Assembly (NCBI GenBank): GCA_025766275.1
Contig: JAFKAC010000004.1
Coordinates: forward strand, 2,294,001-2,358,000
Direction: 5' to 3'
Source: Lactarius indigo
Taxonomy: Eukaryota > Basidiomycota > Agaricomycetes > Russulales > Russulaceae
DNA length: 64,000 nt
Shown piece by piece: positions 8,257-62,920 of this stretch. Made by a program: the position numbers and the translations under genes. The notes beneath the pieces are model-generated. The model had not been told where the DNA came from, did not search any database, and was given only the letters and a program-made list of their open reading frames with translations. Within the stretch, counting starts at the first letter, position 1. The number at the start of each line of letters is the position of its first letter.

Positions 8257-8267
8257 TAAGAGTAGAC
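8257..8267 (+). other. Gypsy-3 self-priming PBS
   Basis: TAAGAGTAGAC directly abuts the 5' LTR and is the exact reverse complement of LTR positions 8078-8088. The same pair occurs in Gypsy-D. Confidence 0.8.
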
Positions 8268-13655: not shown

Positions 13656-13660
13656 GGTCA

Positions 13661-14369: not shown

Positions 14370-14374
14370 GGTCA

Positions 14375-15783: not shown

Positions 15784-15907
15784 GCCTTATCACGGCTCGC
15801 TGATCCTGGTGTAAGCGTGGACATATTCCGTCTCCAAAAATCAGTCGAATGACAGGTCACACTGACACAACAGCTGCAAGACATAGAATGAAACTGGGCA
15901 GACTGGG
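15784..15907 (+). pseudogene. Gypsy-3 ORF3, middle segment
   Basis: Removing LTR-B joins this to the previous ORF3 segment in a plausible frame. The piece DIFRLQKSVE corresponds to the conserved helix with the EVTRLR-type motif of Gypsy-2 ORF3 and the Gypsy-1 extension. It contains stops and is cut by LTR-A. Confidence 0.5.
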
Positions 15908-16414
15908 TGTTACGATATGGACTTTATCATGTGTTGGATGACTCATGACCGGTTATGACTACGGTCCGATAGCTGCATTAGTCATGGACTCTTACATCGT
16001 ATCAGTCAGCACAGTAGTTTACATGTGATTGTGATTCGTGTATGACTCATTCCTAGGATAGCTGTACTAGGGTTTGAGCTAGTTACGCTATTGATCTCTT
16101 ACTATTCCAGCGGCGCTTTAAAGCCCGTATGTATCTGTATAAGTAGTCGTGCTGGAAGACCAAGAGTCCTCATCTTGGTCTTCTTCAAACCACCATCTTG
16201 ACTCTTCTTTGCCTGCCTTAGTCTTCAACTAAGAGTACTTCCACTTCTATCCACCAAGGGATAGTACTCCTCTACCTTTTGCTGCAGCATGTGCCCGAAG
16301 TGCCCCTGTTCAGCCTGCATTGTGTTGACACATGATCCCCATTCGCCTAACCTTTGCTAAGTCGATTACACCTATTCAGAGTCCAAGTTGGACTAACGCC
16401 GGTGGAGTGTAACA
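15908..16414 (+). repeat. Solo LTR-A copy 1
   Basis: 507 bp, TGTTACGA to GTAACA, TSD CTGGG (15903-15907 and 16415-16419). It contains a TATAAGTA box, the hairpin GAAGACCAAGA/TCTTGGTCTTC and the R-start motif ATCTTGGTCTT. LTR-A belongs to relatives of Gypsy-1. Confidence 0.92.
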
Positions 16415-17130
16415 CTGGGCAACAGAAGCCGCCGAGATCAATTCGTGTATTCTGGACACTCACAGCGTCACTTGACTCTTGCCATACCTTCTGAAACCCA
16501 TGCCCATGGCCCTCACCACCGTTTTCACACACGATGGGATATCCGACCCTTGTCTCTGACACCACCGTGCCATTATGGCACCTGAGCAAATCCTCCCTAT
16601 TCCCCCATGCCCGTTAACCCACACATTTTCAGAAGCCACACACATTACTCCCAGATGTCTTACCTACCCACAGCTACACGAGGAACTGGGGCAGTCAGTC
16701 TCTCCGGTATTACATGAGGTGGGAGAAATAGTCAAAGTTACCGCTGACAACACCAAGGCACGTGACATGACCGCAACAAGCTGTGAAGACGATCATCACG
16801 CATCTATTCACACACGCACAGGACTACCCGTGTGCACGTGGTGCGACGCCATCATCCACCTCACATTCGAGTGCCAAACCCCACATGCCAAATGCATCAA
16901 ACGCCAAGTCTGTCACATATCACCAATGGCTGTGCACGCTAACTCCTATTGTGCTTGGCTTGCTGTTCTAGGGTGAGCCATCAACTGAGAGTGCACCATG
17001 CAAGCGACTGCACAACTTCGCACACAACGACGTGGAGAACCATATAAGTGACCAGCACATTACGTATTTTGGCATGACTATGACTTCACGCATGCTGCCA
17101 GTAGTGCGAGTCGGGATGACGTCGCCTAGT
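16415..17130 (+). pseudogene. Gypsy-3 ORF3, zinc-motif segment
   Basis: The frame 16575-16976 (133 codons) ends in a Cys/His-rich block: CTWCDAIIHLTFEC (C-x2-C-x4-H-x4-C), then PHAKC, then C-x5-C spacing (CIKRQVC). The same PHA-x-C-x5-C order occurs in Gypsy-D ORF3. Upstream (16420-16575) stops interrupt the frame. The stretch 16977-17130 has no clear gene and ends at the purine tract AGGGGGG before the 3' LTR. Confidence 0.65.
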
Positions 17131-17140
17131 AGGGGGGCTA

Positions 17141-17543
17141 TGTCACGGTCACGTGACATCGTGACATAACGTCACACAATGCGTTCAGAAAGTATCCCTG
17201 AAATTTTTACAGAAGTATCTCTCACACAACAAGCACACCTTATGGTGCTAGACTCACAAATCATGTATGTGGCAAAGGTAGTGACATGGCTTGTAGAAAA
17301 CAGTCCCCCGAAAACCCAGTATGTACAACTATAAGAGATGTAGTACAATGAGTAGTACAACCTTGTCTACTCTTAGTTCTTGAATACCGAGCATTGCTTT
17401 CATCAACTCCCCTCTCCCTTGCAATCTCTCTGAGTGAGCCAAGGAACCCCCAACTTTGGTTTGTTCAGTGGAACAAGCCCCAACTTCTACCTAACGTTGA
17501 GCTCAGCTCCGTTGACTTAGTACGGTCCCTCAGAACCGTAACA
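17141..17543 (+). repeat. Gypsy-3 3' LTR
   Basis: 403 bp, same length as the 5' copy, preceded by AGGGGGGCTA. It differs from the 5' LTR mainly by C/T and G/A changes at CpG. Confidence 0.93.
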
Positions 17544-41539: not shown

Positions 41540-44500
41540 TTATATTGTTCGTCCAGCCCCTACGGCGGTCGGATATCTTTGGTAGTAGTCTTTAATGGCG
41601 TCCGTGGCGTGAGTCATGTTGCTTGCGGGTTCCCATGTGTTATCGCTTGGTGGGAATCCCTTCCACTTTACTAGGTAGTGGAGTTTGCGCCCTCTTCCTC
41701 GTTCCTGGGCGTCTTCGATTCGCTCCACTTCGTACTCCTCTTCACCATTGATAAGGTCCGGTGGAGGTCGGGTGTAATTTGTGCCGTGTATCTCCGTCTC
41801 CTTATATGGGGTGAGGAGATTCGCATGGAATACCGGGTGTATCTTCCATGACTTCGGAAGTTCCAGCTCATAAGAAACGTCTGATAGAACCCTTGTGATC
41901 TTGAAGGGTCCGTATCGTTTCGGAGCTAATTTGCTCGTGGGATAGAAAGTTCGGAGATTCGTCCCTTCTAACCATACTTGGTCCCCTTGTTGATAAGGTG
42001 TGAACTTGTTTTTCCCTCGTTGTGTCATGAGACGTTGGGCATGTGTTATGCTATCTTGCGCATGTTGGCGAAGTACTGATAGTTTCTCTAGTCTTTGATC
42101 TACCGTGGGATTGCTAGATGGCTTAGGCGTCCATATGGTTCGTGGTTCCCAACCCATGATAAGTGAGAAGGGGGAATGTTTGGTCGTGGCGTTCTTCCAA
42201 GAGTTATGAGCGAATTGGGCCATTGGTAGGAGTTCTGCCCAATTGTCTTGTTGTACGTTGCACCAGTGTCGTAGGTATTGTTCTAGCCACTGGTTGGTGC
42301 GTTCAGATTGGCCGTCCGTCTGCGGGTGATATGCTGAGGATATATTCTGTTGTATTCCCAGAGTCTTGCACAGCTGTCGCATGAACGTTGATGCGAATCT
42401 GGGGTCTCGGTCGGATATGACCCTTCGGGGTAGGCCGTAATGGGGATATACGTGTTGCAGATAGAGTTTGGCCACTCCTTCTGACGTTATGGTTTCGTTG
42501 CACGGTATGAATATTGCCGCTTTCGAGCAATCGTGGTCCGTGATAGTAAGGATCGAATCGAAACCTCCTGATGGTGGGAGTTTGACTATGAAGTCCATGG
42601 CCACCACCTCGAATGGCTCGGCTTCCGGTTCTGTGGTGATGGGGAATAAATGTGGTTTTTGTCGATGGGGGTTGATCTTGTTGCTTTGACATGTCGCGCA
42701 TCCCTTGACGTAGGCCTCTACGTCTTTACGCATGTTAGGCCACCAGAAATCGTGTCGCACCAGGTCTAAGGTGTTTGCAATTCCTGGGTGTCCGGCGCTT
42801 GGGGTATCGTGGAAAAAGGTGATTACCCCCCGTTTAAGATCGTTGTTTCCCACAACAACGAGAGCGTCGTTCTTCCACCACAGTCCGTCGTGTTTTTTCA
42901 AATTGTGCGGTTCAATCCATGGGAGGAGAGTCGCTTCGTCTATGTTTTGTGCGATTTGCGTCCATATGTCCATATCATGCATGGACGTGTGGGTTATTTT
43001 GAGAAAGACCTCTTCTGGTAGTACTGTTACGTGATCATTGTCGTTGGTACCATCATCGTAATCAGGTCGCCTCGATAGGGAGTCGGCTTGGGTATTCTTT
43101 TTGCCCGAGATATGTTTGAGTATGAAATTGTACTCGGACAGTTCTTGGAATTCTCGTGCTATCTGTCGATTGATCTTTCTAGGCTCCTTCCAGTACTGCA
43201 AATTCGCGTGGTCTGTGTGAATGGTTATTAAATGGGGGGATCCCACAAGATATGTACGCCAGGTTCGCAGTGCCTTGACGATTGCTAATAATTCCCTGTC
43301 ATAGATGTCGTAGTTACGTTCTGCTTCGGATAGTGATTCCGAGTAGAACGCTATTGGATGGAGTTTATCGTCTTCTCCCTTCTGATTCAAGACTGCGCCC
43401 AGGGCGTATCCTGAAGCGTCGACTTCAATTTCGAAGGGTTGGTCTAATTTTGGGAATAACAAGACGGGTTCCGAGCTGATTCGTTCTTTGATTGTGTCGA
43501 ATGCCTTTTGTCTGACCGCTGTCCATTCCCAGGGGGTGTCTTTCTTTGTGAGATCATGGAGGGGTCTCGCGATCGTGGAGAATCCTCGTATGAATCTTCG
43601 ATAGAAGTTGCAGAATCCCAAGAAGGCCCGTACTTCTTTCAGGGATGTTGGCGCCTTCCATTCTCGAACTCCTTGGACTTTCACCGGGTCCATCCGTAAT
43701 CGTCCGTGTCCGATAATTAATCCCAGATATTCGACCTCGTAGACTTCGAATACACATTTTTCTGGTTTGATATACAGGTCATGCTTGTCGCAGAGGTCAA
43801 GGACCTGGTGTAGTACCGTCCTGTGATGAGTGCGGTCATCCGCAGTTGCAATTAGGATGTCGTCCATGTAGACAATTACTTCGCCCGTTAGTACTAACTC
43901 CCGGAAGATGGTGTCCATCATCGTTTGAAATGTACTGGGGGAATTTGTGAGGCCGAAGAACATGACTCGTGGTTCGAACAGTCCCTGATTTGTTTTGAAC
44001 GCCGCCTTCCACTCGTCTCCTGGTTTGATTCGGACGTTGTTGTACCCCCATCGGATGTCGAGTTTCGAATAGAGTCTCGCTTCCCGGATTTTATCGATGA
44101 GTTCGGGGATTAAGGGAAGGGGGTAGTGGTTTTTTACGGTTAGTTCGTTGAGGCGGCGGTAATCTTGTACTGGACGCAATTTCCCGTCCTTTTTCTTGAT
44201 GAAGAAGAAGGGGGAGGCATAAGGGGATTTGGACGGCTGGATGTACTTCTTTTCCAGGTGTTCGGTTACAAATTCCGTTAATTTTTCGTTCTCTGGGATC
44301 GTAAGTGGGTACACTTTGCAATCCATCGTTTCGGGGGCGTTCGGGATTAGGTCTATGGCATGATCCCACGGGCGTGAAGGTGGGAAGCGTTGGGAGGCTT
44401 CTTCGCTGAAGACTTTCTGATGTCTTCGGTATTCTTCTGGGACCATCTCTTCGAAGGTTTTCTGGGGTTTTTTGGCTGCTTCCTGCTGTGCCAGTTCGGA

Positions 44501-45073
44501 TGCCGTTGTTGTCTTTCGCAACCGGATACAAGGTTCGTCTTCTTCTTGTAGTTGTTCCCAAGCTGATTCGTCCAGTTGATACGTCTCCAATGCCTTAATA
44601 GTTGCTTCGAGAGGCATGGCTTCGTCGGACAAATGCAAGCTGGTGATAACTACCGGTTGGAATTCTTCGTTTAACGTGGCGTCTCGCCAGTGAAATTTGG
44701 GCTCGAATGCTGTGAACCAAGGGTATCCCAGTATGACTTCGTCGTTGCCCAAGTCGGTGATGAGGAATCGGAGGTTCTGGGTTTTTCCCCCGGTTTTGAC
44801 GGTAAGATCGGTGAAGGATGTAATTTCTCCTCCCTGATTATGAGTTCCGTCTACGTTCCATATCTTGATGGGGCGTTCGGTGGGTAGCCAGGTGATTTTA
44901 AGCCGCTTTAGGAGGTTTGCGCTAATAAAGTTGTCCGTTGCTCCTGAGTCTACCAAAACATTTCGTTCGGCCGTCGCGTGTGCAGATTTGAAAAGTACTG
45001 GAATTCGCATGGATCGGAATCTGCTATTGTACACGCTAAGTTTAAGTGCTTTAGCCCAGGCCGCCGGGTTCAA
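41540..45073 (-). CDS. pol: Gypsy-2 Pol polyprotein with C-terminal chromodomain
   Basis: 1177 intact codons in -1 phase to gag; the first codon is TTG, so entry by frameshift is expected. Protease DSGA at residue 42; RT YMDD at 402-405 (43859-43870); RNase H near 530-660; integrase zinc region (HDTPSAGHPG, CATCQ) near 42670-42820; integrase core with AMDFIVKL, SDRDPRF and TDGQSERTN; GPF motif; chromodomain [20 protein letters not shown] near 41620-41690. It ends shortly after the chromodomain, so the extension fused in Gypsy-1 is here a separate ORF3. Confidence 0.95.
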   Translation of the reverse strand: MNPAAWAKALKLSVYNSRFRSMRIPVLFKSAHATAERNVLVDSGATDNFISANLLKRLKITWLPTERPIKIWNVDGTHNQGGEITSFTDLTVKTGGKTQNLRFLITDLGNDEVILGYPWFTAFEPKFHWRDATLNEEFQPVVITSLHLSDEAMPLEATIKALETYQLDESAWEQLQEEDEPCIRLRKTTTASELAQQEAAKKPQKTFEEMVPEEYRRHQKVFSEEASQRFPPSRPWDHAIDLIPNAPETMDCKVYPLTIPENEKLTEFVTEHLEKKYIQPSKSPYASPFFFIKKKDGKLRPVQDYRRLNELTVKNHYPLPLIPELIDKIREARLYSKLDIRWGYNNVRIKPGDEWKAAFKTNQGLFEPRVMFFGLTNSPSTFQTMMDTIFRELVLTGEVIVYMDDILIATADDRTHHRTVLHQVLDLCDKHDLYIKPEKCVFEVYEVEYLGLIIGHGRLRMDPVKVQGVREWKAPTSLKEVRAFLGFCNFYRRFIRGFSTIARPLHDLTKKDTPWEWTAVRQKAFDTIKERISSEPVLLFPKLDQPFEIEVDASGYALGAVLNQKGEDDKLHPIAFYSESLSEAERNYDIYDRELLAIVKALRTWRTYLVGSPHLITIHTDHANLQYWKEPRKINRQIAREFQELSEYNFILKHISGKKNTQADSLSRRPDYDDGTNDNDHVTVLPEEVFLKITHTSMHDMDIWTQIAQNIDEATLLPWIEPHNLKKHDGLWWKNDALVVVGNNDLKRGVITFFHDTPSAGHPGIANTLDLVRHDFWWPNMRKDVEAYVKGCATCQSNKINPHRQKPHLFPITTEPEAEPFEVVAMDFIVKLPPSGGFDSILTITDHDCSKAAIFIPCNETITSEGVAKLYLQHVYPHYGLPRRVISDRDPRFASTFMRQLCKTLGIQQNISSAYHPQTDGQSERTNQWLEQYLRHWCNVQQDNWAELLPMAQFAHNSWKNATTKHSPFSLIMGWEPRTIWTPKPSSNPTVDQRLEKLSVLRQHAQDSITHAQRLMTQRGKNKFTPYQQGDQVWLEGTNLRTFYPTSKLAPKRYGPFKITRVLSDVSYELELPKSWKIHPVFHANLLTPYKETEIHGTNYTRPPPDLINGEEEYEVERIEDAQERGRGRKLHYLVKWKGFPPSDNTWEPASNMTHATDAIKDYYQRYPTAVGAGRTI

Positions 45074-46692
45074 GCGTTCAGAAAATCCTTTTTCTGCCCG
45101 AAGAGTTTATCCACCATTAATTCTCGTACTTCGGGAGTTTGGGCGAATAATGCCGCCACTTGGGCGTCGGCTTGTTCTTCGTTGGAAAGGGGACGTGATG
45201 CGGTCATTGAGATGGTGGCAGTGGTCGGGGTGGAATCATTTGTGTTGGTAGTTTTGGCCGAGGTGGCTGATTTCTGGGGACAGAACCTGGAGATATGTCC
45301 TTGTCCTCGGCATCTGAAGCACCTTCCTTCTTTTTGGAGTAGCTTCTTTTCGTCTTCTGTTATCGCGGCTCTGGCGCGAGTACGACTAACGTCCATCGCA
45401 TTCGGGTCTTTTGCTTTATTGAGGGCATTCAGCCATTGGTCACGGGAGGCTCCTCCTTTCTTGTCCGTTCTTCCTTTGGTAAGCCTATCTTTAAGGAGGA
45501 GATACTCCGCCTGTTGAAGGGTTACCGCCGTCTTCCAGTCATCCCAATCCACGGGGTGGTGGAATTTGATCGCGTTTATGACTAACGCGTTTGGGAGACC
45601 TTTCTGGAAGATTTCCAAGGTTGTGGCCTCGTCTTTATTGTATCCTGCCTTGTTGGCCAGGTTAGAAAACTTGGCTATGTAGGTGTCGATGTCTTCTTTG
45701 TCCATTCGTAAGTTCTGAATGGCGTGGCGGGCTTTCTGTTGTTGGGTAGTGTCGGTGTATGCCTGGATAAAACGTGTCTCGATGGTGTTCCACAGGTTTT
45801 CGGCGTTCATGGCTACGCCACCTGCTAATTGGTCGGCCAGCCATTGTATTTGTTCTTCTACCCAGTCGTCAACGAGTGGTCCGCGAATATAAGACAGAAG
45901 CGTCATTGCTCGTGAATATGGGAGAGTCAGTTGTTGTACGTTCGGGTTCATTCCTCGATATAAGGCGAAGGCGTTGAGGAAGGCTCTGCTGGTTTCCCGG
46001 TCTCCCGTAAATTCGGGTGGGGGGTTTCCCCCGAGTCGTCCGTTTGGCTGTGGAGGTCCTCCGGCTGCGGGGCCAGCTGCGACTCCGCCGCCTCCACCTC
46101 CAGGCGCGCCGCCTCCACCTCCAGGCGCACCACCTCCATGATGGCTTCCTGCGCTTCCCGCAGTGCCTCCTCCGCTTGTCGACATACTTCCTCCCACAGG
46201 ATATCCTCCACTACCTGCAGGATTCGTCGTTGAGGAGCCTGCGGTTGGTTGTGAGGAGGTGAGGGTGGTGGAGAGTTGGGTGGTGGACATGTTGGCATAC
46301 GATGCGAAGTCGACCGGGCGTTGGACAGTTGGTGTAAGGGTCGGATTATCTAGGTCTGGTTCTGAGGATGGTTCTTCGACGTCTGAGTCTGCGTCGATTG
46401 CGCTAATTTGTCCTTTTCCTGGTCCTAGTCCGAGGTGCGCGGGGACGGGTTTATATGAATACCAGGAGTGTCTTGTATCAGAATAGGCGACGTAGGCCCA
46501 AATGTGTTGGTCTTCGATGTACTCGATGGGTTCGTATGTGAGTTTATCGGGGTCGTAGACGTAGTACCCTTCGTCGTGTGGAGTGTTCCTCCAGAGAGCG
46601 GTTCCTTTGATAGACGATCTTAGGTCGTCGTGGGGGTGTCGCTCCAGGTACTCTTTGACGAACTGTGTTCGGCTGCGGCTAGTGAGAGCCAC
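45070..46692 (-). CDS. gag: Gypsy-2 Gag
   Basis: 540 intact codons, overlapping pol by 4 nt. It begins with GTG (46692) in the context CCATCGTGG at the same place as the GTG start of Gypsy-1. No ATG lies between the putative transcript start (46944) and this codon, and the first in-frame ATG is about 130 codons in. Features: acidic N-terminal domain with aromatic motifs (GYYVYDPD, HSWYSYKP); Gly-rich stretch near 46080-46160; capsid-like region (KEDIDTYIAKFSNLANKA); CCHC knuckle C458/C461/H466/C471 (CFRCRGQGHISRFC). Near its end, G GAT TTT (about 45081-45087) is the likely -1 slip site. Confidence 0.93.
   Translation of the reverse strand: MALTSRSRTQFVKEYLERHPHDDLRSSIKGTALWRNTPHDEGYYVYDPDKLTYEPIEYIEDQHIWAYVAYSDTRHSWYSYKPVPAHLGLGPGKGQISAIDADSDVEEPSSEPDLDNPTLTPTVQRPVDFASYANMSTTQLSTTLTSSQPTAGSSTTNPAGSGGYPVGGSMSTSGGGTAGSAGSHHGGGAPGGGGGAPGGGGGGVAAGPAAGGPPQPNGRLGGNPPPEFTGDRETSRAFLNAFALYRGMNPNVQQLTLPYSRAMTLLSYIRGPLVDDWVEEQIQWLADQLAGGVAMNAENLWNTIETRFIQAYTDTTQQQKARHAIQNLRMDKEDIDTYIAKFSNLANKAGYNKDEATTLEIFQKGLPNALVINAIKFHHPVDWDDWKTAVTLQQAEYLLLKDRLTKGRTDKKGGASRDQWLNALNKAKDPNAMDVSRTRARAAITEDEKKLLQKEGRCFRCRGQGHISRFCPQKSATSAKTTNTNDSTPTTATISMTASRPLSNEEQADAQVAALFAQTPEVRELMVDKLFGQKKDFLNA
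45081..45087 (-). promoter_or_regulatory. Predicted -1 frameshift heptamer of Gypsy-2
   Basis: Minus strand G GAT TTT in the gag frame, 5 codons before the gag stop. The spacing to the stop equals that of G GGT TTT in Gypsy-1. GGATTT-type heptamers are known slippery sites in retroviruses. Confidence 0.6.
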
Positions 46693-47371: not shown

Positions 47372-47922
47372 TGTTGATAAGTGACCCTTGTGCACTTAGT
47401 GGCTCTAATGGACCAGACTTACAGATATGGACTGCTGTAGATTAATTAGGACCGCTTTAGATTAGATTTGATCTGTACAATCTAGGACTTCTATGACATC
47501 ACTGTACAATGACATCATATGGACTACTTCCAGACTTTTCATTGTACTACGTTCCCTTGTTCTACTTTTGTTCTTATCCTTATTATGATGTCATTATGAT
47601 ATCACCTTTGTCTGGACTCTCTTTGTTCTAGTCGCCTTGTTCTCTTTTGATACACTCCTTTTGTCCTGTATGTAGAACAATGCTCCTTGTATTCTGTGAC
47701 TCTATGTTACCATCCTTGTACTAGTGTCACACCTCTGTATAGTATAAGTAGTAGTGCTTGTACGCTCCTGGTCCACATCAGTTCTCTCACTGCTGTGTGC
47801 CAGACAACCTCTGCTTCACTCTGCTTGACTTCACCCCTGTTGCTGCCTTCCAGCCACTCTTGATATCTCACCACAGTCTCCTTTGTCACTGTGAGTATCA
47901 TCTTCATGTGTGCTGTTCATCA
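47372..47922 (+). repeat. Solo LTR-B copy 8
   Basis: 551 bp, plus orientation, perfect TSD GCCTG (47367-47371 and 47923-47927), one CATCAGTTC unit. Confidence 0.93.
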
Positions 47923-47927
47923 GCCTG

Positions 47928-48179
47928 GATGCCCTTAGGCAGTACATACTCCAACCACTCTGCAATATCTGCATAGTTCTCCTGCTCTCCAATGGATAGC
48001 TCCTTTCAGAGTTGGGTAGTTGTATGTTAAAGGGCCCCCTAAAATGCCTGAGATCCAGGAGCACCACTGGAAACTTCCTAGGTGAGATGCATGATGTCCT
48101 CCTGCTTTGCCTGATAGAAGGCATTCCTTGCAGACCACTTCCAAGTGAGCTTAATGACCTAACAATGTGGGGCAGAATA
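47928..48179 (-). other. Unidentified coding-like block, piece 3
   Basis: About 250 bp with short open stretches on the minus strand (for example YADIAEWLEYVLPKGI). It has no recognised domain. It lies between two solo LTR-B copies in opposite orientation. Confidence 0.3.
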
Positions 48180-48687
48180 TGATGAACAGCAGACATAAAG
48201 TGTATACTCACAGTAACAAGGGAACTGTGGTGAGATATACTAGAATGCTGGAAACAGAGGTGAACAGGGTGAGTTGCAGTGAAGCAAAGAGGTCTGGCAC
48301 ACACCAGTGAGAGAACTGATGTGGACCAGGAGCATACATGGTACTCTACTTATACTCATACAGGGAGTGGCAGTACTACAAGGTGAGTAACACCAAGACA
48401 CATTGTTCTATACAGGACACAAAGGAGTGGATATAAAGAGAACAAGGCATTAAGAACAAGAAGAGTCCAGAGCAGGATGATATCATAATGATATCACAAT
48501 AAAGATAAGAACAAAAGTAGAACAAGGAAATGTAGTATAATAGCAAGTCTGGAGTAGTCCATATGATGTTATATACATATGATGTCATAGTCCAGATTGT
48601 ACAGATCAAACAGTAATATAATCTAATGTAGTCCATTGTCTATTTGTCCATTAGAGCTGCTAAGTGCACACAGGTCACTTATCAACA
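48180..48687 (-). repeat. Solo LTR-B copy 9
   Basis: 508 bp, minus orientation, perfect TSD GAATA (48175-48179 and 48688-48692), one CATCAGTTC unit. Confidence 0.93.
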
Positions 48688-49444: not shown

Positions 49445-50206
49445 TGTAGCGGTATGACTTATCACATACAACTAGACCAAGGTGAAGGTAAGTGAACTGA
49501 ACTGGTATACACCCAAGCCTAGCGCAGAGACAAGTCACATGTCAAATGTACAGTCACTGAGGAGGGTAAACACACTTGAGGTCTTTTATACAAGACCAAA
49601 GGTTAGGTGATCACACAGTGGTATGCTGAGCGGAGAACCAAGAGGACAAGTTAACATTGGAGAGGTAAGGGAAGTACAAGGGGAATATGCACCTGAGTGG
49701 AGAACCAAGAGGACAAGTTGGTTCCACTCAGGATGCTACATGAGGGTTTATATACTATGCTGTGGCTGAGTTTGAATTACTACAGAACCTTATTACTAAA
49801 GGTATAGTAAGTAGTAATGAGTCAGATGCTGACACATCGTGTCTAATAATAGCCTTATCTATTGTGCTGACTGATGCACAGTTATAAAGGCTGACAGAAT
49901 AATGATGTGTCCTTATCTATGAGTCATAATCCCTATAACAATGTGATCTAGAACTATCTAGATCCTTCCCTGCTTATCATCCAATAAGAAACTACTATAC
50001 TAATGAGGAAGGTGACCTAAAGAGGTAATACCTGCTAGGGAAGTTACTGTCTCAGGGTCATGTGCTTGGGTGCACATGTTGGCATCACATGACTAACCAT
50101 CTTATCATATCTAATGATAAGGACTTTTGGATGTTTAGACACAACATTGGGTGCTCTATATAAATCCATAAAAATATGGAAAAATAAGGCAAAAATAGAG
50201 CATCCG
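49445..50206 (-). repeat. Solo LTR-C copy 2, main segment
   Basis: Minus orientation. It starts TGTAGCGG on the plus strand, and the remainder TGACA lies at 57208-57212. TSD CTAAG (49440-49444 and 57213-57217). About 60 bp longer than copy 1, partly from a duplicated GAGAACCAAGAGGACAAGTT unit (49634 and 49697 regions). It is split at ATCCG by Gypsy-D. Confidence 0.88.
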
Positions 50207-50614
50207 TGTCACAGTCACGTGACATTGTGACTATCTGTCACGCATTACGTCGTGCCAGCAAAGTAGCAAACGAAGTATGACACCAGAGTTTTGGAATAGC
50301 ACAACTGACAGTGCTAAGGAGCATGCCTTGTGGTGCTCCTCAAGAAAATAGTCATGAAAACCAATAGTCTGTAGGAGTATAAGTAGTAGCTGTCTGAGTA
50401 GTACTTTTGGTTGTCTACTCTTAGTCCATTGAATCCAATCTACAGTTGCCTTGACATCCCTTGCCTGAATTCCCCTCTCTTGTGCAATTGCCTTTGGCTT
50501 GAGCCACGATAATCCCTGACTTTGATTCAGTCATTAACTAAATCCCAACCCTACTTGCCCTTGCCTTGGGCCTGAACTTGAACGTGTCATGGATGGTCCG
50601 TTGGAACCATGACA
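50207..50614 (+). repeat. Gypsy-D 5' LTR
   Basis: 408 bp. TATAAG at 50378 and GTCTACTCTTA at 50413-50423, 35 nt apart. The start is a decayed form of the CACGTG-centred palindrome of Gypsy-3. Confidence 0.93.
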
Positions 50615-50625
50615 TAAGAGTAGAC
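50615..50625 (+). other. Gypsy-D self-priming PBS
   Basis: TAAGAGTAGAC directly abuts the LTR and is the exact complement of 50413-50423. Confidence 0.8.
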
Positions 50626-52594
50626 CCCCTAACATTGCTGCAGAACAAGGCACAAAGCATTCTCAGAAATCGTGAACCACAGAATGAGGCGATCGATCTC
50701 CTCTGTAACCAGAACTGTGCGCGTAACAGTCCCCGAGCAGACATGTAGCACACCAACATCCAGTCCAGACGAGACTGAATATCACCAACAAAATCTGAAA
50801 CCCTGTTGCTGCTGGACAAGGCGTGACACATCCCCACAAAACCCACTCCGACATACATGAGGGATAACCTTAGACAACCAGTGTATCACATGAATGATGA
50901 TGGACAACCTTAGACAACATCGAGAAACCGCTGGACAAGACGAAAAGCATCCTGCAAACCAAAGCACCACGGATAACTTGAGACAGCACGCATATATTGA
51001 GCCAGCTAATGGACACGGAGTACAGTGTGTGATGGATAACTCAGAACCACCATCTTTCACCAATGAAAGAATTGACTCAACACCCCCGGACCACGTGATG
51101 TACGGTGCAAATGAATGATCTATGGAACAGATCAGTATAACACAAACGACTCATGGAATGAAACAACTTGAAGATACAGGAGTTGAAGCAAACAAACTCC
51201 ACGCCAGATGAGTTGAGCACACCGACATAGATTCAAGCGATATCCACAAAGGAATGCAAATGACAGGGCACAGAACCCAGTGCCACAAAAAAGGCTGATG
51301 AACCCCTGAGATTGATTACGAGCCTGGACAGGAGGAGCGAACAAGTAATAACAAAACAGACAACATCAGATCGCCAAGTGATGAACAACAGGAGAATAAG
51401 TCACAAGGAGACAACTCATGAAAGCAACGACACGGAACCCAAGGACCTAATAGCAAAGAGGAGGTCACTTGAACCCCAAACAAGACTCAACAACAAAAAG
51501 AGAACGAACCCACAGGGAAATTACTCAGAGACAACGTGAACATGGTCAACTGGTGTCAACAAAAGCACGACAGAACCGGAATGGAATCACGCACCTATGA
51601 GCACAACTCGACATACATCATCAACACAGGAGAATTGATGACACATAGTCACCCCAGATCCACGAGCTTTAAAATGAGATCGATTACTTATCAGACAGAA
51701 GTACGACAGGAACCTCAATCAGAAACCCCAATGGGAGGTAGTGAAATGAGAACCAAAAACTCCCATGACCACGAGTCAATAGAAACAGTCATTAAAAACG
51801 CAACAACTACAACAAGGAGGTATCTGTTATGTGAGGACACACCGAATACCCGGAAAACAAATATTGATAACTTGGATGACACATCAGAGAATTGTCCTCT
51901 AAACATGGAGGAACAGACTTCAAACCAGTATGCATGCATTAGCCAAGTTGAAGCCCATGTGGAACCACTACACGAGGAGATGCACCGAACAATGTACACA
52001 AACCAGCTAAGTTGAAGCCCATGTGAGACCGTTACATGTGGAGACGCACTGGATAACACAAGTATCAACCAGATAAGACGAAGCCCATACCAACAAAGCA
52101 TACGAGGAGATGCACTGAATGATCAAAGAATAAGTGGAACCCCATACAATATAAACACACGAAACGCACCAGATGACTGTATCACAACACCCATTGAGGG
52201 GATGAGAATGAACAGAGACGAACTACGTTTCAAGGGATTCGAAAGCGAACTCCCACCAAAAATAGTGTCATGATCCCCATGAGGCAACCGCACCGAGTCG
52301 GGAACAGCCAAAGACGTCACCAGACCCATACCAAAAAAACCCATGACGCAAGAAACGTCAAGACATGAGCAATGTCAACAGGAAAGACAACACTTCCAGT
52401 GTCTAGGACGAGACATCAAATTCGCGAATATCCAATCAAACAAATGTCAATGAGAACAGATCGCAACCAAAATTCGAAGAATGGACATCATTACTAGGTG
52501 AAAAATAATCACATGAATGATAAAGGGCGATGAGCCCTCCCTGAAACAAATAACGGCCAAGCTCCAGAGTATGGATGTTGCTGTGTGACAAAAA
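50626..52594 (+). pseudogene. Gypsy-D gag-equivalent region, unrecognisable
   Basis: About 2 kb with open stretches such as 51536-52015 (159 codons) separated by stops, many TGA. Composition is rich in Lys, Thr, Asn, Gln and His. I find no capsid-like motif or CCHC knuckle. Its position between PBS and protease remnant is where gag should be. Confidence 0.5.
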
Positions 52595-55500
52595 ATGATA
52601 TCACGACTCATAGAAAGATTGGAAGATGAACAAGAGGACAAAAACGTCGAAATCAATGGAAATACATTGACTAAAGCAATCACAACGTACGAAAAACTCC
52701 ACCACGACACAGTGGCAATGCTTGACTTAGGAACTGTGGACAGATTCACCAATCATGGAAGGGAGGGGAAATTGAACCTCAAACTAAAACTCGGCGAACT
52801 TTGCCCCACCGTCAGTACAAGCAAAGTATCGAACCAACGAGATGACATGACCTTCGCGTGCCAAGAAACGACCCAATACAGGTCACCCACCTATACCATA
52901 CCTCCATGCGCCATGAATATAAGGTAAATTCAATCGGCAATCAGCCGGAACAACAAAGAAATGCCTGAAGTGGAGCGGCACATCACATTGCAACGAGGCA
53001 CCAGGGTCGACACTGTCGCACAGCAGACAATGGAACAACGTCAGGAGAGGAAAAGAAGAAAGTCGTTAAGAAAGTGTTATGCAGACCAGACAATGATGCC
53101 ACCAGAAGGAACCGAATGGAAGTTCCCACCACAACGAACTGACGATCATGTGACCACATCAGCACCCAATAAACCAACGATCACATTGAACAAAATATAT
53201 TCGCTAAACGAGTTCAAATGCTTGGACGATTCTATGACGGAATGCCTCGTGAAAGAATGTCTTCACAAATCTCGGTCACTCCTCTTCTGTTTAGGAATGA
53301 AAGGTGAAAAACAACAACTGAGATACAAACCACTGAAACAATTAACAACATGGAATGTGTGTGCAATCCTACTAATTCCAGACGTCCTAGACCAGCTGAC
53401 CAACAAAATGCTCTTTACTGCGTTCGACACATGTCAAATGTATGCTGTCACCTGGGGTCAGAATAGAAAACAATGCCAGGTTACAACTAAAGAACCAGTG
53501 AGACCAACAATTATGCCCTCTTGGTTAACCAATTCTCCAGCAAGCCTCCAAACAAATGTCAAACCACGTCTCCCATTCCGTACCTCAAACTTACCCAATA
53601 GAACTGTTCACTTCTTTGGGCGACATGTCAATTTTGATCATTCCCAGCTACGTGCGCCACAAACTGCTCTGTGTCTTGATATGAACAAATTGGACTACTT
53701 CAGTCAACAAAGTCAATCACAAACACTCTCTACCATCGAACAAATTTGCTGTACCCTTGGGACTCTCGGACGTCAACAACTATCTACTCTATGATACGCC
53801 AAACCTGCCCGACCTCTTATGCAAAAGACCAACCCCTTTTCATACATGACGAAGCACGCTACAATGCTTGACATCCTTCTCACCATTGCCTGCTCGTGCC
53901 CCATACGCCAACAAACAGGCGCCTTGCGGTACGATACCAACACCACCCTTACACAGTTCAACAGTTGAGAGGAAACACCGACCATCGACTACTTTCCACC
54001 AATACCCTCCCCCATCAATCGTAACCACTACGTGCACAATCACAAACTCTTTGCACTAATACATACTCTTGCACACTGGCAATGTCTGCTCGACAACACA
54101 TGGTACCCAGTCACCATCCTGACAAACTACAACCTTCAACATTGTCATGTCTGTGACACACACCTTCATACTGCTACCCTTTCTCGCCACCCAGTCCTTA
54201 CTTCACCAATACCAACATTTTTCCTGTTGTCATTCTGCCCTTGTTGCACCTCCTCACAGCTGCCCAAGACCACCACATCCGGCAATCGTCCCCTCCACCA
54301 CCCAGCACATGTCGCTGCCGACCCTCAGTCCTACAATGACCATCTTGTGATTGCAGATGATCCCCTTCTGAGGAGGGGGGTAATTCAGTCACTTCACGAC
54401 TCAATCACCATGAAACACCCAGACAAGAACAAAAAACCGCTTACCCTTTGATGACATCCTATGAAAACAGAAGCCACTAAGCATAACACAGGATGTCTGA
54501 TACACCAGGGAAACAAAAATCTCCCTAAATTACCCTGCACACCCTTGTCATCCATCGACCCGCGACAAGGTACACCCTGTTTCAACACATTCATCCAGGA
54601 CTTCAACACAAAGACCTCCAAGTCTCTTGATTTTGTTACTACCACCAATCAAAGACGTTCCAAAATCAGGGTCATCATACTGACAAAAGAAAACTGTGGC
54701 ATCGAAAGAATGACTAACGTGTTCAGCAGCTGTATGCCACCACGCTACGGACTGCTGAACAAGATACCGTCCAAACAAAACCTACACATTACCACCATAC
54801 TCACACGCATCCCCTACACTCCACCAAACATCAACCAGAATAATAATTCAAAGTATCGTTCGTGTGCCAACAGTCGACCAAAAGATCTGAATCAATGACA
54901 AATGCAATATCTCAATGCTCATGCCAACCCGCAACGGTATAACAAACGTACAACACAGCTACTGGTAATGCAATCCACCCATGACACACAACCGTCTAAA
55001 GAGACAACACGGTCCCCATATGGGATACTCATGAGGTCCACACCCTCAACACGTCAGCAGACACCCATCATCTCACGAACAAGCGACAAACGTCTCACCA
55101 TGCGGAACACACTCCACAGAGATCTCTCATTGATTATAGCAAGTAGAAAAGGATCGATCAGAAATCACCAAACAACACATGGCGAACTCACGCCACAACC
55201 ATGTAAACCATCTCATGTTCCAGATAAGACACGTTCACTGAAACTGGAGAAGGCCCACAACATGTTCTATGAGGAATTGATCATCCCCAATTGTACAATC
55301 AATACCATCAGAAGCCAAAAGGTACAATCCCCGCTCCAATCAACCTCAGAAAACACCAAATGAAATAATGAGTGAATCTCTGGCCATCAACCACGAGACA
55401 AGAAGAGGATGCTGCAAATTCAGATGCCCTGGGAATGTTGAACCACTGTGCACCAGGAAACCGTAGACGGTGTCTGTATGTCAGCATGGTTTGTACAGTA

Positions 55501-55720
55501 TAAGAGACAAGTACAGTTGACCATCAAACCCACCACCTTGAGTTCCCCACTAATGGATGAGCACCGCTCACAGTCTCTAACCATTACAGCAGAACAGGTC
55601 CCCCGTCAATGGACTTTTGAACCAGAAACCCTCACACCTCTTCCCATCAACACCACTTGGCCCATCTGCCCGTCACTTCAGCATCCACCTCCTGGCCCTA
55701 CAGCAAGTGGGACGGAATGA
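52595..55720 (+). pseudogene. Gypsy-D pol, collinear but catalytically dead
   Basis: Protease remnant near 52720 with DLGTVDRF where Gypsy-3 has DSGASDNF. 52961-53794 (277 codons without stop) aligns with RT from the PPE-DDHV start through LTNSP, but WGYNN, FFFLKKKDG and YMDD are replaced (FGRH at the YMDD position). RNase H is not recognisable. Integrase 54350-54900 keeps RRGVIQSLHD and a GLL-K piece, but the TD and SD catalytic positions have changed (TNQRRSK, IPSKQN). 54902-55363 covers the integrase end. Divergence from Gypsy-3 is far greater than the LTR divergence. Confidence 0.7.
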
Positions 55721-55822
55721 CCAGTCTCCATCCTCAATGATGATGCTAACAAAATAACTACCGACATTGGAGGCAAGCCATTGCCGACCCAGATCGATCA
55801 ACAAACTACGACTCTCAAGTGA

Positions 55823-56635
55823 CACCACCTGTACGACCTTCCGGGTGCAGATGCCATATTTACAACAAATGACTATGGGTTTCACATCCACAGTTATTTC
55901 TTCATACACAAGTCACCACATTTCCGACAACTTTGGGGAATCCCCAGATTGAGCCTTGAAAAACCCATCCAAGTAGTAGACGAAGGACCGGTCCCAGTCA
56001 GGACTGACGTCATTGAAGTATACCACATTGACCTTGACGATGTGACATCTGAGGAACTCACGCTACTCTTGTGGGTTTTCTATAACCCGACACATTCAGT
56101 CTACAAGGCTACCACATGGGAATGGACGCTAATCCTCCAATTAGCACAAAAGTGGGAATTAACTGCAGTCGAAGCACTATGCTGGAGAGAGCTTCTAAAT
56201 AATGACATCATTACTTGCTCTCATTTACAGGTACCACGCAACCGATCTCCTTGTATGAACAATGGAGTTCGTCACCTTCATTGTCCACAAATGGTCCATG
56301 CACAACCAACCACCTCCAACGAATCAGAACCTGAAGTACGACAGTGTCCACCAGTCATAATCGACCTCATTGGAGATCACAACCCAATGCCAGCACAAGG
56401 ACAACGTAACGACCACCGAGGCACACAAACTGACACTTACCATTGCTGCTATTGCCAAGGTATCGGACATACCAAGGCCTTCTGTCACCAACCCCATGCT
56501 CGGTGTACCCCGCAGCAACACTGTGCCATTCCACCTCGTCACCCTTATTACAGTCTCCACTGTCCGACGTCAGTGACTTCACCTACTAACAAACACACCT
56601 GTACATGGGTACACGACTTGCGCTCTCCAGCCTGA
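55823..56635 (+). CDS. Gypsy-D ORF3: BTB/POZ domain plus CCHC zinc module
   Basis: 270 open codons after an in-frame TGA at 55820-55822; the first in-frame start is uncertain, no ATG precedes the domain. Residues 2-127 resemble the fungal BTB/POZ fold: GADAIFTTNDYGFHIHSYFF, SPHFRQLWG, then DDVTSEELTLLLWVFYNP and EWTLILQLAQKWELTAVEAL. BTB domains dimerise and recruit partners such as cullins or repressors. The C-terminal part has a CCHC knuckle C208/C211/H216/C221 (56444-56485), then PHA-x-C228-x5-C234 and a His/Cys end, the same order as in Gypsy-3 ORF3. All zinc ligands are intact although pol is dead. Capture of a host BTB exon is inferred. Confidence 0.72.
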   Translation, partial: HHLYDLPGADAIFTTNDYGFHIHSYFFIHKSPHFRQLWGIPRLSLEKPIQVVDEGPVPVRTDVIEVYHIDLDDVTSEELTLLLWVFYNPTHSVYKATTWEWTLILQLAQKWELTAVEALCWRELLNNDIITCSHLQVPRNRSPCMNNGVRHLHCPQMVHAQPTTSNESEPEVRQCPPVIIDLIGDHNPMPAQGQRNDHRGTQTDTYHCCYCQGIGHTKAFCHQPHARCTPQQHCAIPPRHPYYSLHCPTSVTSPTNKHTCTWVHDLRSPA

Positions 56636-56794
56636 GCAATCCAACCGACCACACACCCTCAACACTATTGACACTGTACCGCCATTGACAACCAACCAGT
56701 GGATGACTATGAATACCCCTACAACATCGATTGGGAGGCCACCAATCGAAGCCCTTAAGACATTTGTGGACAAATGAACCTAGAAGGGGGGCTA

Positions 56795-57202
56795 TGTCAC
56801 GGTCACGTGACATCGTGACTATCGGTCACGCATTACGTCGTGCCAGCAAAGTAGCAAATGAAGTATGACACCAGAGTTTCGGAATAGCACAACTGACAGT
56901 GCTAAGGAGCACGCCTTGTGGTGCTCCTCAAGAAAATAGTCATGAAAACCAATAGTCTGTAGGAGTATAAGTAGTAGCTGTCTGAGTAGTACTTTTGGTT
57001 GTCTACTCTTAGTCCATTGAATCCAATCTACAGTTGCCTTGACATCCCTTGCCTGAATTCCCCTCTCTTGTGCAATTGCCTTTGGCTTGAGCCACGATAA
57101 TCCCCGACTTTGATTTAGTCATTGACTAAATCCCAACCCTACTTGCCCTTGCCTTGGGCCCAAACTCAAACACGTCATGGATGGTCTGTTGGAACCGTGA
57201 CA
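56795..57202 (+). repeat. Gypsy-D 3' LTR
   Basis: 408 bp, preceded by the purine tract AGAAGGGGGG (56783-56791). It begins with the intact near-palindrome around CACGTG. Confidence 0.93.
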
Positions 57203-57212
57203 ATCTGTGACA
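57203..57212 (-). repeat. Solo LTR-C copy 2, terminal piece
   Basis: Second TSD copy ATCTG of Gypsy-D followed by TGACA, the last five bases of LTR-C. Confidence 0.75.
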
Positions 57213-58354: not shown

Positions 58355-58954
58355 TGATGAACAGTACACATAGAACTATACTCACAGTGGACTAGGGAAC
58401 TGTGGTGAGATATAGAGGTGACTGGAAGCAGAGGTGAACAGGGGAGTCTTGCAGGTAAAGCAGGAGGAGTCTGGCACACAACAGAGTGAGAACTGATAAA
58501 TAGTATTACAGAGGGGTGACTTTACCTGGCACACAACAGAGTGAGAACTGATGTGGACCAGGGTGTACAGAGTACTCTACTTATACTATACAGAGGTGTG
58601 ACACTAGTACAAGGACAGTAATATAGAGTCACACAATACAAGGAGTGTTGTTCTACAAGAGGAATGTACTAAAGGGGAATTAGGCAACCAAAACAAAGAA
58701 AGTCTAGACAAGTATGATATCATAGTGACATCACAATAAAGATAACGCCACAAAGAGAACAAAGGATGGAGTACAATGAAATGTCCAGAGTGTTCTACAT
58801 GATGTCATTGTACATGATGTCATAGATAAGCTAAGAAGTCTGAGATTGTACAGATCATATAATCTAATCTACAGGTCCAATATATCTTATCTAAAGCAGT
58901 CCATATCTGCAAGTCCTTTAGAGCCACTAAGTGCACACAGGCTACTTATCAACA
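58355..58954 (-). repeat. Solo LTR-B copy 10
   Basis: 600 bp, minus orientation, perfect TSD ATTAG (58350-58354 and 58955-58959), two CATCAGTTC-type units. Confidence 0.93.
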
Positions 58955-59386
58955 ATTAGTTGTGGACCTTTACATTTACATCAGTCAGCAGTAGTATCAC
59001 ATGGTTGTGGCTATTGCATGACTCATTCCTAGGATAGCTGTAGTAGGGTTCAAGCTACTTATGCTATTAGTTCTCCATAGTTCTAGCAACACTTCAAAGC
59101 CCGTGTGTATTTGTATAAGTATTAGTTGTGAAAAACCAAGAGTCCTCATCTTGGTCTTCTTCAATCCACCATTCAAACTCACCTTCTGCCTGACTCTAAG
59201 TCAGTGAACTTCTGCTTTGACTTACCAAGGGTTGAGCCTCTTTATCTCTTTGCTGTGGATGTGTTGCCATACAGGCCCCTGTTTAGCTTGCATCATGTTG
59301 ACACATGGTCCACATTTGCCCTACTTTGCTAAGTTGTCACCACCTATCACAAGTCCAAGTTGGACTAACACCCATGGAGCATAAGA
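58955..59386 (+). repeat. Gypsy-G LTR-A, right segment
   Basis: Contains TATAAGTA at 59114 and ATCTTGGTCTT at 59148-59158 (34 nt apart). The end is decayed to ATAAGA. Confidence 0.85.
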
Positions 59387-59388
59387 TT

Positions 59389-59399
59389 AAGACCAAGAT
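59389..59399 (+). other. Gypsy-G self-priming PBS
   Basis: AAGACCAAGAT, exact complement of 59148-59158, same position as in Gypsy-1. Confidence 0.78.
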
Positions 59400-59407
59400 C
59401 CTTCATC

Positions 59408-59641
59408 ATGGTGGTCACAACAAGAGATCAGTGGACATCTTTCCACCCATATTCCCTCCAACGATAAGGAGATTGCAATATACCTATCATATTCCTGGGA
59501 GCTGCCCAGCAGAGAGAACAAGACATCAAAACTGGATATGTTGTGGAATTTAATGGACCAAGCCATTATTGGCCTGTTGAGTTCAATTTTGATCATCTGT
59601 GTTGGACAGAGGTTATGTGGAACCCAATAGATCATTGCTGG
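59408..59641 (+). pseudogene. Gypsy-G gag, N-terminal segment
   Basis: ATG 59408 aligns with the GTG start of Gypsy-1 Gag (VTTRDQWTSF follows in both). It continues with VEFNGPSHYWPVEFNFDHLC up to NPIDHCW, with a stop after SLQR. It is cut by LTR-B copy 11. Confidence 0.82.
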
Positions 59642-60255
59642 TACATATAAGTGACCCTTGCACACTTAGTGGCTTGTATGGACTGGACTTGCAGCATGGA
59701 CTGCTTTAGATTAGATATACAGGACTTGTAGATTAGATATTGATCTGTACAATCTCAGATACCTTGTATTTACTTATCTATGACATCACTGTACCATGAC
59801 ATCATGTGGACTCTGGACCTGTCATTGTACTATGCCTTTGTTCTCTCTTTAGTTCTATCCTTATTGTGATGTCATTATGATATCATCTTAGTCTGGACTT
59901 TCTTTGTTTTGTGCTCCTTGTTCTCCATCTGTATATTCCTTTTGTTCCACATGTAGAACAACATCTCTTGTACTCTGTGACCCTATGTTACTCTCCTTGT
60001 ACTAGTGTCACTCCTGTAAACAGTATAAGTAGTGTACCATGTACACTCCTGGTCCACATCAGTTCTCACTGCTCTGTGTGCCAGGTATGTCTTATTCCCT
60101 CCAATGTAATATCAGTTTGCACTGCTCTGTGTGCCAGACAACCTCACTTGTTTCACTTGCTTGCACCCCTGTTGCTGCTTCTCAGTCACCCTATCATATC
60201 TCACCACAGTCAACCTTGTCACTGTGAGTATGATCTCTTTGTGTACTGTTCATCA
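59642..60255 (+). repeat. LTR-B copy 11
   Basis: 614 bp, plus orientation. The outer start is decayed (TACATATAAG for TGTTGATAAG). It lies inside the gag of Gypsy-G; flanks GCTGG and GGACA do not give a clean TSD. Two CATCAGTTC-type units. Confidence 0.85.
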
Positions 60256-61436: not shown

Positions 61437-62920
61437 GTGTGCCTTCACAAGTACCTTGAAGACTCTGGTGTTGATTTTTCTGTTGCCCCAGCTTCTGATG
61501 TCAATGCTGACTCAGATTTGGATTTGGAGCTCTCATCATTCTCCAGCCTCAGCAGCCTCTCATTGTTCTCATCAGATGATGATGATCAAGTGTCTCACCT
61601 TTCTCTCCCCCTCTCTGAGGTAGAAGATGCATTTTATTCAAACAAGCAAGCTGAACTCAATTGACTATGCCAAGAGATCCTCACTTCAAGGGTTTTGCAC
61701 AACAACCCTAAAATCAAGAAAGCTCCTCAAATACATCTCCTCAAACAGTGGCACAATGATAACCTCAACCAATACCAATGCAAAGTCTGTGTTGATCCCA
61801 ACACATTTGATGGACTTGTCAAGACGATCTGCAAACACCCAATTTTTGGCAACAACTCCAATGTTCCCCAGAAGCCTGTTTCAACACAACTTGCCATCTT
61901 TCTCTACTGTGCTGGTCACTATGGCAATGCTGTGAGCCCTGAAGCCATTGGCCACTGGGCCAGTGTCAGTCCAGGGACTGTTTTCAACTGTACTAATAGA
62001 GTAATGCTCATGCTGCTCTCTCTGCACAATGAAGTTGTTCATCTGCCAACTTTGGAGGAGAAGGAGAGTGCTAAGGCCTGGGTAGCTGTGCAGGTTTGCC
62101 TGGAGTGGGAAAATGGGCACCTTATGGTGGATGGTACAAAGTTTCTGCTATTCCAGCGTCCTGGACTTCATGGCAATACCTGGTTTGACAAAAACAAAAA
62201 CTATTCCCTTGACTGTCAGGTGAGCACAATCACTTTCAACATCTTTCCAAAGCTAATTTTGTGTCAGCTTGTGATGCTACTGGACTCCCTGCACATTGTC
62301 CACTATGCTATGGGACACACTGGTAGCATTCATGACTCTTGGTCATTCTGGAGCACTCACATCTTCAAGGAACACAACCACATCTTCACCCCAGGTGAGT
62401 GGATATGGGCAGACTCAGCATATCCATCCAAGACCTGGTGTGTCTTGCCATTCAAGAAGCCAATTGGTGGAGAATTGACTCCAGATCAATGAATGTTCAA
62501 CTATCATGTTTCCTGTGTAAGTCAAATACACTTTCATCTTCAAACATTCTCAAAGGTGTTAGATTTGCATTCATTCTGAACAAGCCATCAGGCTCCTTAA
62601 GGGTCACTTCCAAGCCTTACACAAACTCCAAATACAAATATCCTCACCAAAGCAACACAAATGGGCTATCATCTTCATCTGCTTGTGCATCATTCTCCAT
62701 AACCTCATACCCCAACTTGAAGGAGGCAACTTCAATCCTGACTTTTGCAAACACCTTTGTGAAGCTGGAAGATGGGACATGCCAGATTTTAACAAGGGAA
62801 ATGATGGTGAGTTGCAGCAGGTGTGTCAACAAGTTGAGACTGACAGTCAATGGTTTTGCTGTTATGTTATGGGACAGTTATTTGATAGTTCTACCAGTGG
62901 AGCAGTACGACAGCCAGCAT
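61437..62920 (+). pseudogene. Harbinger transposase (DDE_Tnp_4 type)
   Basis: An acidic Ser/Asp-rich N-terminal part (61437-61661) is followed in the same frame by TGA 61662-61664 and then the main frame 61695-62492. Helical region TQLAIFLYCAGHYGNAVSPE and VSPGTVFNCTNRVM; catalytic VDGT (first Asp, near 62130), GHTGSIHDSWSFW (second Asp), WADSAYPSKTW (third acidic region). A 48-bp GT-AG intron (62220-62267) interrupts YSLDCQ|LVMLLD without breaking the frame. The tail after a likely intron at about 62517-62552 needs one frameshift near 62575 to reach SEQAIRLLKGHFQALHKLQI and CIILHNLIPQLEGG. The enzyme would excise and insert the element. Confidence 0.85.
62220..62267 (+). other. Intron in the Harbinger transposase
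   Basis: GTGAGC to GTGTCAG, 48 bp, a multiple of three. Removing it joins the conserved block YSLDCQ to LVMLLDSLHIV. The size fits basidiomycete introns. Confidence 0.65.

Follow-up and report, generated by a model that had tools for sequence, protein, structure and literature searches.

A host-type BTB domain under purifying selection in a degenerate Ty3/Gypsy element family of Lactarius indigo

The element at the locus

The window is the whole stretch of DNA analysed here, 64,000 nucleotides from Lactarius indigo (GenBank assembly GCA_025766275.1, contig JAFKAC010000004.1, positions 2,294,001 to 2,358,000). An LTR element at 50207-57202 houses an open frame of 270 codons, and the same frame, about 2000 codons long, spans the whole element. 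The LTRs lie at 50207-50614 (TGTCACAG...CATGACA) and 56795-57202; they are 95.8% identical. Both LTRs and all internal features given below are on the forward strand. The flanking target-site duplication (TSD) is ATCCG on the left (50202-50206) and ATCTG on the right (57203-57207), equal at four of five bases. A primer-binding site (PBS), TAAGAGTAGAC, adjoins the 5′ LTR at 50615-50625, and a polypurine tract (PPT), AGAAGGGGGGCTA, adjoins the 3′ LTR at 56782-56794. With TG..CA LTR ends and a 5-bp TSD as well, this is an LTR retrotransposon. TSDs are perfect in seven of the nine elements read, in L009 and L010 once the LTR start is moved to TGTCA; the other two are the window copy and L015.

The PBS is the 11-nt perfect complement of a site within the LTR, the candidate self-primer GTCTACTCTTA at 50413-50423. 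The same relation was found in nine of nine elements tested, among them Gypsy-3, discussed below. We infer from this complementarity a self-priming of the Tf1/sushi kind, which would place the family in that group.

Between the LTRs the frame begins with the relic of a gag-pol region (50732-55822), traced by tblastn with the ORF of locus L009 and by counting stops, which break it here; its pol homology was assigned through hhalign on intact relatives. Next come the BTB domain (55823-56212), delimited by the open frame, Pfam matches in relatives and host-gene alignment, and a linker that varies among aligned family members (56213-56443). A CCHC knuckle and a PHAxC-x5-C module follow (56444-56524; motif scan and alignment), and then the relic of a conserved acidic/aromatic C-terminal tail (DDYEYPY..DWEA..RSP, 56636-56755; alignment).

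The original prediction, made from the window's letters, had described a frame open across 270 codons with a BTB-like block, a CCHC knuckle and a PHAxC module. All are present: the frame is open at 55823-56632, with the knuckle at 56444-56485 and the module at 56492-56524. The block quoted for the BTB started too late, the domain beginning at 55823. Nor is the frame a separate ORF3, as had been proposed; it is the 3′ end of the ~2000-codon ORF, which is intact as one ORF in six relatives. The limits of the 270 codons are two decay stops in a far longer frame. From the 5′ LTR up to the BTB, the window copy has 29 stops in this frame, counting those in the untranslated leader; three more follow the BTB start, the last being the natural end. 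At 18 of these 32 columns with a stop, the closest intact relative has Arg, the pattern that CpG decay would give, and the CpG observed/expected ratio is 0.64 in the window copy versus 1.30-1.38 in the six intact-ORF copies. The window copy is thus an older, decayed family member. CpG decay accounts for most of its stops but does not explain why relatives have the frame open.

On either side of the element, at 47529-48553 and 58563-60104, lie repeats of 61-250 nt, both direct and inverted, that are related to one another (73-93% alike). Further along, at 61695-62492 on the forward strand, is a DDE_Tnp_4 transposase fragment (E 1.6e-11), which we take to be Harbinger-like.

Related Gypsy elements

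Gypsy-3 (7854-17543, forward strand) is a decayed relative of autonomous type, with LTRs, gag, RT, integrase, chromodomain and a C-terminal CCHC module. Pfam recognizes its RT, integrase and chromodomain, the latter two in broken frames, and its gag match falls just short of the cut-off. Its LTR ends and the core of its PPT match those of the BTB element, and its PBS is identical. The prediction that the CCHC/PHA module is common to the BTB element and ORF3 of Gypsy-3 was borne out by tblastn (29% over 75 aa, E 5.7e-4, at 16728-16952).

Two intact gypsy pol frames also lie in the window, at 2333-7102 (forward, 1590 codons) and 41543-45106 (reverse, 1188 codons). Both encode RT, RNase H, integrase, SH3_Tf2-1 and a chromodomain, and are chromoviral.

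Elsewhere in the genome, matches to RT, integrase and the CCHC module fall together in one stop-free frame of 2062-2135 codons at eleven loci (on contigs C272, C281, C244, C280, C46, C219, C226, C179, C262, C225 and C288), as read from match tables. No BTB match was found at these eleven loci in homology searches in which 81 of 81, 91 of 125 and 150 of 214 candidates were scored; in the 91-of-125 search C288 was matched through its CCHC part only. Given these eleven single frames, the one-ORF layout is probably ancestral. Either the BTB was inserted between integrase and CCHC, or the other elements have lost it; insertion is favoured.

In searches with two LTR queries (40 of 170 and 40 of 145 candidates scored), no autonomous element whose LTR is nearly identical turned up. 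The matches fell into three kinds: BTB elements, LTRs without a pair, and four loci with RT in the opposite orientation. The latter (C22, C89, C104 and C167) were considered as partners, having an LTR ~5 kb from a related RT, and were rejected; in the three of them with a listed integrase match, stops break the integrase.

Copies across the genome

A search of this one genome (90.3 Mb, 291 contigs) with the 270-aa protein gave 67 matches, 81 of 81 candidates being scored. By our reading, 34 element loci and one lone gene (L022) are among them; the other matches are to genes of the host BTB family or to additional pieces of these loci. The domain is found at many loci, in line with the prediction that it spread with the element: the 34 loci are those with the BTB or its linked end, some of them possibly alleles, and counts from the genome searches are lower bounds.

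Fifteen loci were fetched. Six (L009, L010, L011, L012, L013 and L014) have an uninterrupted single ORF of 2004-2077 codons, with a common ATG in five. The coding frame of these six ORFs is free of stops, where each of the other forward frames has 63-83, and their pairwise amino-acid identity is 50-73%. The frame is thus not confined to a single copy with stops in all its relatives. A matched LTR pair at 98.4-100% identity was found at eight of the 15 loci, and the LTRs are 99.3-100% identical at five of the six with a stop-free ORF. Only short LTR matches were found at L012 (91 nt, 98.9%) and L023 (137 nt, 94.2%), and no pair at five of the 15.

The L018 type (L018:4148-8530) is the most recently amplified subfamily, with six full copies 97-100% identical across the BTB ORF; at L018 the repeated unit extends past the 9.9 kb fetched on its 3′ side. 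The BTB frame of L018 has 2 internal stops over 4.4 kb, where ~48 would be expected. Two in-frame stops lie upstream of the BTB ORF, one directly preceding it, so that continuous translation is either unnecessary in this type or recently lost. Between this subfamily and other members, omega (dN/dS) for the BTB is 0.09-0.19, at a dS of 1.2-2.5 that is close to saturation.

Several loci are of other form. In L053 and at L019:6631-7134 the BTB is interrupted after EALCW and an unrelated tail is joined in the same frame; The loci of this form are on contigs C67, C242, C290 and C136, those on C242 and C290 being assigned to it by matches over the same shortened range. An array of imperfect repeats with a ~212 bp unit (L020:2941-4792) adjoins one BTB element copy. 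L022:6725-7684 (contig C238, ~172.2-173.2 kb) is an intronless 320-aa ORF at a single locus. Its BTB is 38-43% identical to nine element BTBs and 26-29% to three host BTBs, and its tail resembles the element tail; it lacks the CCHC, and no LTR pair was found within the 9.9 kb read. L022 is possibly a domesticated element BTB.

The degenerate gag-pol frame

No Pfam match to RT, RNase H or integrase was found in the full ORFs of L009 and L012 or in pieces of L018 (seven pieces scanned). An hhalign comparison of the six ORFs with the two intact window pols and the Gypsy-3 RT piece gave a match with probability 99.9 and E 4.9e-31, the E value applying to that one comparison. The match covers 820 columns at 22% identity, from RT through the chromodomain region. 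We therefore read the ~2000-codon ORF as a gag-pol relic, on this profile homology. The six ORFs have not conserved the YMDD motif or the integrase SDRD motif seen in the intact pols; with no Pfam pol domains either, the family is non-autonomous.

The BTB family can thus be classed as non-autonomous LTR elements, without intact RT or integrase and with recent insertions, as the young LTR pairs attest. LARDs have a long internal region without coding capacity, and the BTB family, with its constrained coding ORF, is not one. It lacks the intact integrase and chromodomain of a chromovirus. The suggestion that the BTB sits in an extra ORF of a functional chromovirus therefore gives way: the BTB belongs to the C-terminal end of the ORF, which is a degenerate gag-pol, and the element that carries it is a non-autonomous derivative.

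Selection along the frame

Maximum likelihood (ML) omega was estimated for the six ORFs on gap-free columns, since with gaps included iqtree returned an unrealistic tree length over the integrase-like region. Omega is 0.72 for the gag-like part, 0.88 for the pol-like part and 0.88 for the linker, versus 0.22 for the BTB and 0.34 from the BTB to the end. Over the whole ORF, pairwise NG86 omega is 0.54-0.62.

Counts of differences at codon positions 1/2/3 give the same picture. They are 872/796/1073 and 1007/902/1086 in two gag-like halves (third-position share 0.36-0.39), 1274/1327/1377 in the RT-like, 840/870/981 in the RNase H-like and 540/534/539 in the integrase-like region, and 1149/1130/1270 in the linker. 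For the BTB they are 419/286/811, for the BTB-CCHC linker 270/314/446 and for the knuckle to the end 263/274/577. As a positive control, the two intact window pols have a third-position share of 0.50.

Neutral evolution with stops forbidden was simulated, 60 runs per region, with an assumed kappa of 3 and CpG factor of 3 (ML kappa is 3.7-6.6). Simulated neutral mean omega was 0.71-0.97 by region. Median omega of all gag-pol regions and of the linker falls within the neutral 95% ranges. The BTB median, 0.16, is far below its range (0.43-1.15). The BTB-CCHC linker (0.44 versus 0.48-1.21) and the knuckle with its module in intact copies (0.35 versus 0.39-2.00) are barely below theirs; the tail, a short region with a wide range, has 0.21 in intact copies versus 0.41-2.01. 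The same contrast in constraint appears in three close pairs, at lower divergence. Gag-pol codons thus evolve almost neutrally yet without stops, and the BTB and the rest of the end are constrained. Purifying selection on the C-terminal BTB, found by the dN/dS comparison of copies that the original prediction had proposed, is clear; it also acts on the CCHC and tail. The gag-like part may be under weak constraint.

The BTB has a median synonymous divergence of 1.04, above the 0.20-0.66 of upstream regions. With regional divergence also varying within pairs, this indicates that copies recombine. Recombination, and the youth of many copies by their LTRs, would fit a family that has recently died, with no selected protein, its ORF open by inertia and BTB conservation owed to chance or gene conversion. 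We consider this very improbable. At the 50-73% identity of the six ORFs, ~45 stops would be expected over gag-pol and linker per pair distance if stops were not banned, and 0 are observed; gene conversion would not give a BTB with a synonymous divergence of 1.04 and an amino-acid change of 0.22.

Another reading is that the whole ~2000-residue product works as a disordered protein, its gag-pol part constrained in composition and not in sequence. The share of hydrophobic residues, 0.26-0.27 in the relic ORF versus 0.38-0.39 in the intact pols, is in keeping with it, as are the gag-like values for ML omega, somewhat below 1, and third-position share. We think it unlikely, since composition in the first 1700 residues tracks base composition (correlation 0.88-0.92, compared with 0.68-0.75 in the two intact pols and 0.78-0.86 in the C-terminal end) and pol-like substitutions are spread nearly flat over codon positions.

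Identity and origin of the BTB domain

In the window copy the Pfam BTB match reaches 17.5 bits (E 0.0047), below the curated cut-off of 20.5 bits. Relatives pass it at L018 (29.7 bits, E 7.8e-7), L009 (21.2) and L019 (21.1), and L012 stays under it (19.4); ten of eleven aligned family members match at E<=1, the best at 3.9e-7. Sequence matches in the PDB are weak, the best being to Kaiso at E 0.044. A single-sequence structure model is of low confidence (mean pLDDT 36.2); its order of strands and helices, itself unreliable, looks BTB-like. No relative was found when viral contigs were scanned with the alignment of BTBs. A search of a protein database with the 465-aa BTB-CCHC ORF returned nothing at E<=1e-3; host-type BTBs were missed as well, and the database was therefore taken as poor in fungal proteins and no inference drawn.

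Three host BTB genes align with nine element BTBs at 39-49% identity, with a common core (WVFYN..YS.Y). Within that core, each of the three is interrupted at the same site by a phase-2 GT-AG intron of 51-57 nt. The intron is absent from the nine aligned element copies, and its excision restores the element spacing. A spurious BTB match, or a BTB born in the element and unrelated to those of the host, would suit the window copy's score and the PDB results, but the host alignment with its shared core and single intron site, and the scores of relatives above the cut-off, contradict it; we find this hardly credible. BTB homology is accordingly argued from the Pfam matches in relatives together with the host genes.

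An intron in three of three host genes and in none of the element copies supports capture from spliced RNA, and the element resembles Bs1-like transduced-gene elements in holding host sequence without its introns. What stood of the proposed host BTB exon is a host-type domain fused to the element's CCHC and present at many loci. A single captured exon it is not, the host intron position inside the BTB being cleanly removed. In an unrooted BTB tree with the three host genes these group together, and the branching of element BTBs and the donor are not placed.

BTB genes abound in this genome. A Pfam BTB search gave at least 150 matches (150 of 214 candidates scored). Among these 150, 14 are element loci and most others are in gene clusters; we take the remainder to be host genes or their remains, and the BTB family to be large. 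Contigs C218 (~271-409 kb) and C259 (~1.87-2.16 Mb) carry large BTB gene clusters in mirror image, probably two haplotypes in one assembly.

BTB proteins can serve as CUL3 adaptors. The captured domain might accordingly act on the host, by mimicking or blocking host BTBs or by linking an element-bound target to the CUL3 ligase and so removing a silencing factor, with the CCHC as a tether. The size of the host family and the host-like core residues kept by the element BTB lend this some appeal, and the low-confidence fold model weighs against it; we hold it to be doubtful.

A model for the family

The reading we prefer, with somewhat more than even confidence, is that the window element, now decayed, belongs to a non-autonomous Ty3/Gypsy family that is mobilized in trans and kept for its C-terminal BTB-CCHC protein. 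Its RNA would retain the signals for reverse transcription and integration and be copied in trans by enzymes of Gypsy-3-like relatives, as the common PBS, PPT and LTR ends suggest. Translation would start near the 5′ end, and ribosomes would cross ~1,700 codons that are nearly neutral for amino acids before the BTB. Stops there would be selected against because ribosomes must cross the relic to reach the BTB; avoidance of nonsense-mediated decay may add to this selection. In the least certain step, the BTB-CCHC product would dimerize through the BTB and bind element RNA through the knuckle, which would protect the element's own RNA or favour its packaging. For the biochemical role, favouring its own RNA would be our first choice, and an effect through host BTB or ubiquitin partners the second.

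A more specific form of this idea, which we offer tentatively as less likely than not, is selection on the frame only. The ~1,700 former gag-pol codons would be a leader free of sequence requirement and free of stops, leading to a BTB-knuckle that favours its own RNA in the particles of relatives.

Known systems

Acutely transforming, replication-defective retroviruses bear gag-oncogene fusions and are moved by a helper. The BTB family is like them in having captured spliced host sequence in a defective, helper-moved element, and differs in being an intracellular, long-maintained fungal element with no evidence of cell transformation. To our knowledge, neither Tf1 nor Tj1 carries a BTB. Tf1 and Tj1 have a PBS complementary to a segment near the transcript 5′ end, and Tj1 encodes Gag, PR, RT and IN (PMC4600332). 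In the BTB family the transcript 5′ end is the expected one, and self-priming is deduced from sequence alone.

Bs1 of maize is an LTR element with transduced host genes, and like the BTB family has host coding sequence inside an LTR element (PMC7264820). Here, unlike in Bs1, one BTB domain sits close to the 3′ end of a degenerate gag-pol ORF of full length, copies are many and divergent, and selection was measured on the captured part. Gypsy elements of Phalaenopsis carry an ORF for an AlkB m6A demethylase, again a host-type domain fixed in a Gypsy lineage, and proposed there to reflect host control; it is a separate additional ORF in a 25 kb element, whereas the BTB is C-terminal in the sole ORF of a non-autonomous one (PMC9289625). 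RLG_Quinta of wheat is the non-autonomous partner of RLG_Cereba. It too is a non-autonomous Gypsy whose PBS, PPT and LTR motifs recur in an autonomous relative and which still makes a coding contribution, but it supplies GAG, while here a captured BTB with CCHC is kept as gag-pol drifts (PMC11302176).

Host-gene capture by LTR elements and coding non-autonomous partners are thus already known. No report of a BTB in an LTR element was found in a search of open-licence literature. In PMC5982828 the BTB gene lies next to a mating locus; the main text of PMC3248453 is without the word BTB and mentions complex elements with extra domains in a supplementary figure. What appears new, as a variant, is that a captured BTB is combined with a gag-pol leader that is stop-free and otherwise nearly unconstrained.

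The common view of non-autonomous LTR elements is that they are passive riders. Here the rider keeps a host-domain protein of its own, and has kept it long enough for pol to drift to 22% identity with the frame still open. A mobile element has recruited sequence from the host's BTB genes, which form a large family in this genome. The contrast within one ORF, between a near-neutral stop-free leader and a constrained BTB-CCHC, probes what a parasite's parasite must encode, and asks how translation itself limits retroelement RNA.
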